Virus record (IMG/VR): IMGVR_UViG_3300021197_001437
Span: 1-31,914 of that record
Strand: one strand, 5' to 3'
DNA from: a virus
DNA: 31,914 nt
Numbering within the stretch: position 1 is the first letter of the stretch; each line of letters begins with the position of its first letter. The notes beneath the pieces are model-generated. The model ran no database searches. It was given only the letters and a program-made list of their open reading frames with translations, and had not been told where the DNA came from. Positions 17,481-18,811 of the stretch are shown here, piece by piece. Both the position numbers and the translations under genes were made by a program.

Positions 17481-17645
17481 ATTCGATACTATTTGAAGTG
17501 TGACAAGCTTTTCTCTCAATCGTTTCAGCTCATCGCTAGCCTTTAATTTATCAGGCAGCTCCTTTGCGTATAGTTGCTTCTTCTTCTGCTTGGCTATCTG
17601 TTTCTGTGTTCGTGATATTACCCTTTTTAGGTGCGCAGGGTGCAT
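17472..17645 (-). CDS. Small Lys/Gln-rich helical protein
   Basis: 57 residues with GGAG 5 nt before ATG 17645. Reads as a single basic amphipathic helix (RTQKQIAKQKKKQLYAKEL, then KASDELKRLREKLVTLQ), a likely coiled coil. Overlaps the end of the DUF3268 gene. Unknown function. Confidence 0.65.
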   Translation of the reverse strand: MHPAHLKRVISRTQKQIAKQKKKQLYAKELPDKLKASDELKRLREKLVTLQIVSNGD

Positions 17646-18016
17646 TTAATCTCCTCAATTGCCTTGTATGCAGCTCTGCATTCATCAAGGCTTTTCAATG
17701 ATCCTGTGTGATACTTGAACCCTAGCTTTTTAGAAATCAACTTATATAGCTCCGATCTCTTCATTCTCCCATCTTTCCATACTGGATCGATAATCCCATG
17801 CAATGCCTGTCTATGCTTTTTGATTTCAGGAGTTGGTATGCATCCAAGTGGTTGAGTTCTGTTTTTTGTCTTATGGTGACAGCCTACAAAGTTATTGCAG
17901 CAATCACATTTCCAGAAAGGGAGTTTAGCTAAATCACTTCTGTGCGGATAAATCTCAATTCCATTGGTTAATCTAGCCTCGATTTCATCTTCACATGAGC
18001 AGCAATAGATATTCAT
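17627..18016 (-). CDS. DUF3268-family zinc-finger protein
   Basis: 129 residues fitting the DUF3268 layout: paired cysteines at the start (YCCSCEDE), 'IEIYPHRSDLAKLPFWKCDC', CNNFVGCHHKTK, PLG, a basic helical middle (HRQALHGIIDPVWKDGRMKR) and CRAAYKAI at the end. The family is common in phages and prophages and binds zinc; its role is unknown. First protein gene after the structured non-coding tract, so it may be read from the promoter at 18.55 kb. Confidence 0.85.
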   Translation of the reverse strand: MNIYCCSCEDEIEARLTNGIEIYPHRSDLAKLPFWKCDCCNNFVGCHHKTKNRTQPLGCIPTPEIKKHRQALHGIIDPVWKDGRMKRSELYKLISKKLGFKYHTGSLKSLDECRAAYKAIEEIKCTLRT

Positions 18017-18019
18017 ATT

Positions 18020-18527
18020 CTTTAATCCAATAGTTCAATTAAGACATTAGGTTTGATATACCCAATGCACTTTAAAGTAAAAATATTTAAGAATAAGCCA
18101 ATCAGGTATCACGCCATATTTAAAGTGTTCTCACACTAGTCACTCTTTCGAGTATCAAACCTAAGTTAGCTATGTTTGTCGCAGTCTTATGCTTAGATGG
18201 CTTATTCGAATGTCATTGGTGTTTTATATACCGCTCTAGCCAACTGGTTGCGGCACTTACTTTGCGGATAGCTAGTGGAAGCTAAGGTGTGAACTCTGTG
18301 GAGGCTGTAAGGAAGTGGATTGTGTCTGGCAGGATTCGAACCTGCATCTGCCCCGCTGTTAACGAGAGTTTGTACCATTTAACTACAGACACAAAAAAGG
18401 GCTTAGTAAGTAACAACCCCGTTGGAAGTGGGGCGCAAAACAGTAAGTTTAAAAAACCCTCCGTGATTGCTACTGACTAAACCCACTTACTTTTTGACTT
18501 TCTAACGGCTTCCACACCGCGTATTAC
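18020..18527 (-). ncRNA. Candidate large structured non-coding RNA with embedded tRNA
   Basis: About 510 bases without a credible protein gene, carrying long complementary segments. 18047-18058 with 18153-18164 is 12 bp perfect, enclosing 18068-18076 with 18119-18127 (9 bp). 18091-18100 with 18198-18207 is 10 bp and crosses the first helix as a pseudoknot. 18297-18316 with 18497-18516 is 20 nt, with 16 Watson-Crick pairs plus three that are G-U on the + strand and A-C on the - strand. 18399-18411 with 18472-18484 has 11 of 13 pairs. Smaller hairpins lie at 18231-18253, 18269-18284 and 18417-18433. A TTGAAT-17-TAAAAT promoter abuts the right edge and points leftward, and the tRNA is on that strand, so minus is preferred. 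The wobble pattern of the longest helix favours plus. Size, pseudoknots and tRNA recall GOLLD/ROOL RNAs of phages, but I cannot match a consensus. Confidence 0.55.
18321..18392 (-). tRNA. tRNA gene, unusual anticodon (AAC by position; Val-type?)
   Basis: 72 nt folding as a cloverleaf on the minus strand. The 7-bp acceptor (GTGTCTG/CAGACAC) is perfect, followed by U8-A9, a D-loop with AATGGTA, anticodon stem TCTCG/CGGGG (two G-U), a 5-nt variable loop, and a perfect T-arm GCAGG-TTCGAAT-CCTGC. CCA is not encoded. The 7-nt loop TTAACAG places AAC in the anticodon. Bacterial Val tRNA has TTGACAT, so this may be a Val(GAC) type with G34 changed to A. The D-stem is weak (2-3 pairs). It lies inside the structured tract. 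Confidence 0.75.
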
Positions 18528-18533
18528 GTTACT

Positions 18534-18562
18534 ATTTTACTACTTGTTTATGTTTCATTCAA
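18534..18562 (-). promoter_or_regulatory. Sigma-70 promoter of the structured tract/tRNA
   Basis: TTGAAT (18562-18557), a 17-bp spacer and TAAAAT (18539-18534) on the minus strand. The expected start is near 18527, a few bases before the first long complementary segment. It overlaps the last codon of the upstream gene. Confidence 0.65.
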
Positions 18563-18734
18563 GTGACCACACCTCCCGCATTAAAAATTCCACATGATTT
18601 TTGTCTTTTAACTTCGCTGACATGATCAGATAATGTGTTTTGTTGTAACAATGTCGATAGTCATCACCGAAACGCTCAATACCTCGAATGATGCGCGTGT
18701 ATGTATCGCTGTTGGTTCTTAGTGTCATTTTCAT
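18555..18734 (-). CDS. Small uncharacterised protein
   Basis: 59 residues from ATG 18734, which overlaps the stop of the upstream TM peptide (ATGA). A GTG at 18743 is an alternative. Sequence MKMTLRTNSDTYTRIIRGIE continues into FGDDYRHCYNKTHYL and a final helix (NHVEFLMREVWSLE). No family recognised. The downstream promoter begins in its stop codon. Confidence 0.6.
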   Translation of the reverse strand: MKMTLRTNSDTYTRIIRGIERFGDDYRHCYNKTHYLIMSAKLKDKNHVEFLMREVWSLE

Positions 18735-18811
18735 AGCAACCACCAGCTAATCATAGCCACTCCGCTTACAAGCATCAAGAACACCAATTCAGCCAATATT
18801 CCTACTCTCAT
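18731..18811 (-). CDS. 26-residue membrane peptide
   Basis: MRVGILAELVFLMLVSGVAM followed by ISWWLL: one hydrophobic helix. GGAG 8 nt before ATG, and the stop and start are fused to both neighbours by ATGA overlaps, which argues that it is translated despite its size. Confidence 0.5.
   Translation of the reverse strand: MRVGILAELVFLMLVSGVAMISWWLL

Follow-up and report, generated by a model that had tools for sequence, protein, structure and literature searches.

Genomic context of the tract

The window, that is the whole 31.9-kb virus record analysed here, carries a P22-type portal and a terminase, and between two of its minus-strand genes lies about half a kilobase which an earlier note, made from the letters of the window, had described as free of any credible protein gene. 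This description holds: the sole frame within the tract has 63 codons and a GTG start, no reading frame in the tract is conserved across homologues, and nearly all of the homologues are non-coding. The complementary segments, the promoter and the tRNA listed in the same note are likewise each present at their positions. The locus is laid out as follows:

17627-18016, minus strand: DUF3268 zinc-finger gene, left flank of the tract
18047-18527, minus strand: structured RNA of ~480 nt, with the 5′ domain matched by covariance model R1 (described below) at E = 2.9e-31, followed by the helices of the 3′ domain
18534-18562, minus strand: sigma-70-type promoter, with −35 TTGAAT at 18557-18562, a spacer of 17 and −10 TAAAAT at 18534-18539, kept in homologues
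18555-18743, minus strand: small open reading frame, right flank of the tract

The 5′ end of the RNA is placed at 18527 from the position of the −10 box, and the 3′ end at 18047 from the last covarying helix arm. Folded as a single sequence the tract has a mildly low energy only (z = −1.9 on the minus strand, −1.7 on the plus strand), which would suit a reading without any functional RNA, in which the complementarity arose by chance in a non-coding gap or belongs to an unrecognised gene. We regard that reading as exceedingly improbable, since it is already refuted by the double compensatory changes across independent sequences set out below, and the lack of a conserved reading frame also speaks against it. 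The DUF3268 gene itself (17627-18016) recurs with ~68–72% DNA similarity in many Vibrio phages, most of them without a match to the RNA tract.

Homologues and distribution

We counted 24 distinct copies of the element in approximately 20 Vibrio phages and contigs. Almost all of them occupy gaps without annotation, and many lie beside tRNAs. Distant blastn matches to the tract came from phages 1.275.O, 1.122.A/B, three V. breoganii phages, Seahorse, BT-1011 and H2, and among these homologues the RNA strand is conserved and a tRNA often adjoins. Pattern scans of IMG/VR added L046-L054, L085, L094/L096/L098, L100 and L114, and further searches added NF, 242E40-1 and one contig belonging to a genome of the order. 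We built the covariance model R1 on 13 copies of the 5′ domain; it recognised copies outside its training set at E-values of 1e-6 to 1e-23 (L041 4.6e-6, L069 1.2e-17, L070 and L100 ~1e-6, L102 3.2e-23, L101 9.6e-8, L154 2.1e-20). It also matched L114 at 4.4e-11, a copy that had been retrieved by a pattern of the 3′ domain alone, so the two domains travel together. Two copies each are present in four phages: G003 (L046, L069), G004 (L052, L070), G242 (L114, L151) and NF (L101, L150).

The element looks like one that belongs to phages, as R1 matched 0 of 228 genomes of the host genus, in a search run without a positive control, and 1 of 296 genomes of the order; this single match, on C199, which is probably a phage contig, lies near the end of the numbered contig and holds a tRNA-Gly in its slot. 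None of the plasmids searched carries the element, the exact pattern CCCCRCTTCCAACGGGGTTRYWA has no matches in IMG/VR, and the portal-gene relatives of the window (L003-L036), searched in part with R1, gave no copy in the DNA searched. The pattern matches L055-L061, most of L071-L093 and most of L106-L143 were set aside as chance.

Structure of the 5′ domain

The 5′ domain (18520-18399) begins with hairpin 1 (GCGG...CCGY), followed by the arms of P2, P3, P2 and P3 in that order, with hairpin 2 lying within P3:

18505-18520, minus strand: hairpin 1 (GCGG/CCGU), 76 of 76 cells canonical, with one-sided G-U changes
18485-18495 with 18437-18448, minus strand: helix P2, spanning 18437-18495 and crossing P3 as a pseudoknot
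18467-18484 with 18399-18416, minus strand: helix P3, spanning 18399-18484, with covariation
18417-18433, minus strand: hairpin 2 (CCCC/GGGG), whose loop joins the kissing pairing
18509-18514 with 18423-18428, minus strand: kissing loops UGGAAG and CUUCCA, 112 of 114 cells canonical (98%, shuffle mean 84)

Covariation was counted by a script on a hand-made structural alignment of 19 sequences, with shuffles that ignore kinship, and it is strong, the major helices covarying between homologues. All six kissing pairs have double changes, the P2 core is canonical in 97 of 103 cells (shuffle mean 66) with double changes in 6 of 7 core pairs, and P3 in 314 of 330 (shuffle mean 257) with double changes in 9 of 18 pairs; none of 2000 shuffles reached the counts for the kissing loops, P2 or P3. 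Several helices are rewritten and still paired in L114, L150 and L154, as in hairpin 1 of L154 (CAGC/GCUG), and P3 is completely rewritten in L114 and L150 with its pairing retained. With so many helices independently rewritten, chance is untenable as an explanation even though the shuffles ignore relatedness. The earlier note lacked the strongest elements of the RNA, which all lie between 18520 and 18399: both hairpins, the kissing loops and the pseudoknot of P2 with P3.

The kissing loops fall into nine classes which pair better within a class than between classes (exact permutation 2 of 362,880); examples are UGGAAG with CUUCCA, UUGAAAGA with UCUUUCAA, GUAGGAG with CUCCUAC, UUUGGCGA with UCGCCAAA, and UGAUGG with CCAUCA. 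In three of the four phages with two copies, the loops of one copy pair poorly with those of the other; G242 is the exception, and we take this non-pairing as only a hint. An 8-bp match from the hairpin-1 loop to 18275-18282 was dropped; L100 does not keep it.

Joining helix, 3′ domain and modularity

Beyond the 5′ domain the RNA continues through a long-range helix and a second, pseudoknotted domain:

18498-18507 with 18305-18315, minus strand: helix P1b, spanning 18305-18507 and enclosing the P2/P3 region and insertion site 1
18264-18284, minus strand: hairpin UAGCU/AGCUA followed by UCCGC, the conserved start of the 3′ domain
18212-18254, minus strand: small pseudoknot, GCCGC/GCGGU crossed by GUUGG/CCAAU, with covariation
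18198-18207 with 18091-18100, minus strand: 10-bp helix, spanning 18091-18207 and crossing the 12-bp helix
18153-18164 with 18047-18058, minus strand: 12-bp helix, spanning 18047-18164 and closing the last part of the 3′ domain
18106-18153, minus strand: two GNRA-type hairpins (18142-18153 and 18124-18137) and a conserved core AUAUGGCGUGAUAC (18106-18119), kept in homologues

The 20-nt helix 18297/18497 that the earlier note proposed stands in part. With G-U allowed it forms 19 of 20 pairs on the plus strand and only 16 of 20 on the minus strand; the half next to hairpin 1 is P1b, which covaries across members (permutation 37 of 20,000) and is weak in the window itself, and the other half is unsupported. 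A longer form of the 20-nt helix, continued over the loop of hairpin 1 (P1a), is complementary in many members, but the permutation gave 970 of 20,000 and it was rejected for want of support independent of the kissing pairing.

The 12-bp and 10-bp helices, which had been predicted to form a pseudoknot, are real: they cross, and they covary in homologues, with other, fully paired arms for the 12-bp helix in L100, L052 and L114 and for the 10-bp helix in L100, L052, L114 and L002. Of 300 mononucleotide shuffles of a 240-nt stretch, a single one had an exact inverted repeat to match the 12 bp. The small pseudoknot is GCCCC/GGGGU and GUUGA/UCAAU in L100, and the UAGCU hairpin becomes UUACU/AGUAA in L038 and UUAGC/GCUAA in L070. 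A 9-bp helix in the same note (18068-18076/18119-18127) is there in the letters, but overlaps the conserved GNRA hairpin at 18124-18137 and was discarded as probably due to chance.

Not all copies share this 3′ domain. Unrelated 3′ domains occur in the Seahorse group and in the V. breoganii group, at least three types overall, and L103-L105 (phages 1.226.O, 1.177.O and 199E37-1; ~1330-1480) have the promoter and 3′ domain of the members with different 5′ domains, which nonetheless end in a GC-based helix and U6. On comparison of these sequences the latter are cases of domain swapping at a fixed site, and together with the unrelated 3′ domains they mark the RNA as modular. The parts may have separate roles, since several members retain the 5′ domain although their 3′ domain is unrelated or their insert has decayed.

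Promoter, strand and U-tract

The promoter TTGAAT-17-TAAAAT that the earlier note saw at the right edge of the tract is present on the minus strand (18562-18534) and conserved in homologues. By themselves promoter-like matches are not above chance (three found against 1.7 expected), and hexamer pairs with a 17-nt spacer lie a few bases before hairpin 1 in the window, L002, L041 and L037. A dyad, CCACTACCCACC...GGTGGGT, overlaps the promoter in the manner of an operator upstream of L039, L043, L047, L048, L051 and L101, and the promoter dyads of other groups differ, for example AGGAGTAGTATAATACTCC in L100.

The strand had been left unsettled, with promoter and tRNA pointing to minus and wobble pairs to plus; in our comparison the homologues settle it as minus. 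In helices other than P1b, G-U pairs on the minus strand outnumber A-C mismatches by 76 to 3, a count somewhat biased as the arms were picked with minus-strand pairing in view; this argues for the minus strand, since the ratio would be reversed for a plus-strand RNA. In P1b alone the ratio of G-U to A-C is 10 to 15. The covariance model scores 136 bits on the minus strand versus 27 bits on the plus strand, and the G-U counts, the conservation of the promoter and the model score together rule out a plus-strand reading. The wobble argument for plus relied on the 20-nt helix, whose outer half is unsupported.

Directly after P3 comes a run of uridines:

18393-18398, minus strand: U-tract right after P3, 5–7 U in all copies

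This U-tract is possibly a terminator or a linker, and it opens the way to an alternative in which the element is a cis-acting 5′ leader, its 5′ domain, with the GC-based helix P3 and the U-tract at the end, serving as a regulated terminator (an attenuator or antiterminator) that sets the output of the tRNAs and the downstream gene. The run of U is present in all copies, including those with a completely rewritten P3, and in L103-L105 despite their other 5′ domains; the element begins a few bases past the promoter, and a scan of the interval from the last helix (18047) to the start codon of the next gene (18016) found no terminator, so that the RNA may be an mRNA leader. Nevertheless P1b and the 3′ domain, which lie past the U-tract, are under selection for structure, which implies that the read-through RNA is itself functional, and a leader fitted to one particular gene is hard to square with downstream genes that are unrelated from member to member (C5 cytosine methylase, Dam-like methylase, phosphoesterase, HNH nuclease, DUF3268). 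P3 and U5-7 are conserved, but with a loop far beyond the length that the scanner permits they are not recognised as a standard terminator. Overall we consider a leader, the chief rival reading, rather unlikely.

Insertion sites and the tRNA-like insert

Comparison of the copies shows two sites in the RNA that accept either tRNAs, intact or decayed, or plain hairpins. In the window, the first of them lies as follows:

18320-18394, minus strand: insertion site 1, with a 9-bp closing stem (18386-18394/18320-18328) around a tRNA-Val(AAC)-like sequence

Its closing stem is canonical in 89 of 89 cells with double changes in 6 of 7 pairs (variants include GUGUCUG/CAGACAC, GUAUCUG/CAGAUAC, AUGCCUG/CAGGCAU and GUACCUG/CAGGUAC). 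The tRNAs held by site 1 are Val-like in the window, Trp-Arg-Gly in Seahorse, Met-Arg in H2, Ser-Arg in L047, L048 and L051 and Gly in L154; L101 and L102 hold decayed tRNA-like sequences, and L002, L041, L046, L052, L069, L070, L100 and L150 hold inserts without a tRNA. Site 2, just downstream, carries tRNA-Arg or tRNA-Met in L037, L038, L040 and L114, and 11 of the 24 copies have at least one tRNA. In BT-1011 (L042, ~1460-1500) the tRNA-Met of L043 survives in the site as no more than a 5′ fragment, after which comes an open reading frame, making it a decayed copy.

A tRNA within the tract had been noted before, and a cloverleaf of 48 bits is present at 18393-18320 on the minus strand, but it is atypical and probably not a working tRNA. 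Given its AAC anticodon, a D stem of three pairs, the lack of CCA and an outer stem of nine pairs, it looks like a tRNA-derived insert as opposed to a decoding tRNA. This odd CCA-less tRNA-Val(AAC)-like sequence occurs in three vibriophages, all on the minus strand (window 18393-18320, L044 1562-1491, L045 1568-1496); the copy in the 349-kb phage 2.275.O has 94.5% identity over 55 nt, and that in 1.250.O likewise lies within a long non-coding stretch.

The enclosure of the tRNA site by P1b, and the presence of at least one tRNA in the 11 copies, would be expected if the helices merely presented tRNAs to RNase P and RNase III for maturation, like the stems around spacer tRNAs in rRNA. The domains and the covarying site-1 stem are nevertheless retained in the half of the copies that lack a tRNA, and processing needs neither a kissing loop nor two pseudoknotted domains, which makes a maturation scaffold improbable.

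Interpretation

The earlier note had suggested a large phage RNA like GOLLD or ROOL, a new member or a new class, and the existence of homologues, their covariation and the non-coding nature of nearly all of them bear this out. Against all families of Rfam 15, cmscan (E-values up to 10 for the window and up to 1–10 for homologues) returned only tRNA at its gathering score, with other families as scattered weak matches below theirs. In this search of the window and homologues the ROOL model had no match, and HEARO and OLE had none above gathering score; the GOLLD model (RF02032), run without a positive control over the cut-off, had no match in 11 records. The covariance-model check proposed for GOLLD, ROOL, OLE and HEARO thus gave no convincing family besides tRNA. 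Since no other Rfam family matches at permissive E-values and the GOLLD model finds nothing, we favour a new class over a new member of GOLLD or ROOL, its newness being judged against the open-access literature of PMC. A very divergent GOLLD or ROOL, beyond the reach of the Rfam models, would share the habits of those RNAs (phage carriage, size class, a tRNA in an internal linker, pseudoknots and kissing loops; PMC12286853), but no member matches at permissive E-values, the RNA is shorter than GOLLD, and its widely shared part is the 5′ domain as against the conserved 3′ region of GOLLD; we think such a relationship quite unlikely.

Our reading, to which we give a probability of roughly 0.6, is that the tract specifies a large, structured RNA, belonging to a phage class absent from Rfam and acting like GOLLD and ROOL. 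It draws on the comparison of homologues, which establishes the structure, strand, promoter, modularity and, within the sets searched, restriction to phages, and on the habits in common (large size, phage carriage, pseudoknots, kissing loops and linker tRNAs), from which we propose that the new class works as they do. By this comparison the minus-strand RNA comes just after the conserved sigma-70-type promoter and forms the 5′ domain, with hairpin 1, the P2 and P3 pseudoknot, hairpin 2 and the kissing of both hairpin loops; the pseudoknotted 3′ domain is tied to it via P1b, around the insertion site for an intact or decayed tRNA or a hairpin. By analogy with GOLLD and ROOL, the RNA would be produced during infection and function in its own right, probably as a compact particle with tRNAs and hairpins as interchangeable peripheral parts, and the kissing loops may lock a single molecule or join copies. 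More tentatively, the RNA may stand beside GOLLD and ROOL, with neither of which it would share sequence or fold, as a third class of phage RNA particle that assembles itself, its copies joined by the variable kissing loops and its two sockets open to exchangeable tRNA or hairpin cargo.

To our knowledge the function of GOLLD and ROOL is unknown, and the present RNA is a new case for asking what large phage RNAs do. A distinct class with their habits would suggest that unrelated RNAs have converged on one job. The class is present in cultured Vibrio phages (Seahorse, NF, BT-1011, H2 and the Nahant collection) and is therefore directly testable by deletion, expression and structure determination, and what the tRNA contributes could be probed with the range of inserts found in nature in a single socket, from tRNA through decayed tRNA to plain hairpin.

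Comparison with known systems

GOLLD and ROOL are large phage RNAs with pseudoknots, kissing loops and tRNAs in a linker (PMC12286853). The new RNA resembles GOLLD in being a phage-encoded large RNA near or with linker tRNAs, with one shared and one variable half and a kissing interaction (PMC12286853). It differs in length, many GOLLD RNAs exceeding 800 nt against ~480 nt in the window, and in which half is shared: the 3′ region is universally conserved in GOLLD, whereas here it is the 5′ domain that is shared most widely, the 3′ domain being of several unrelated types. With ROOL it has in common carriage by phages or prophages, a place near tRNA islands, a length of several hundred nucleotides, pseudoknots, a covarying kissing loop and a variable linker (PMC12286853); it differs in having no Rfam match, in its anatomy and in being found only in Vibrio phages so far.

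A large noncoding transcript of a Vibrio phage is the abundant ~800-nt RNA of ICP1, the most abundant transcript of that phage (PMC7567579), which the predicted new RNA resembles in its general nature; the ICP1 RNA is longer (~800 nt) and ICP1 has no tRNAs. R1 has no significant match to ICP1 (best E 0.58), and the ICP1 RNA was rejected as a homologue on this value. The put RNA of phage HK022 is likewise structured and placed directly after a phage promoter, and is tied to transcription termination. It consists of two simple hairpins in ~70 nt, whereas the vibriophage RNA has a 130-nt pseudoknotted domain and a 3′ domain in addition.
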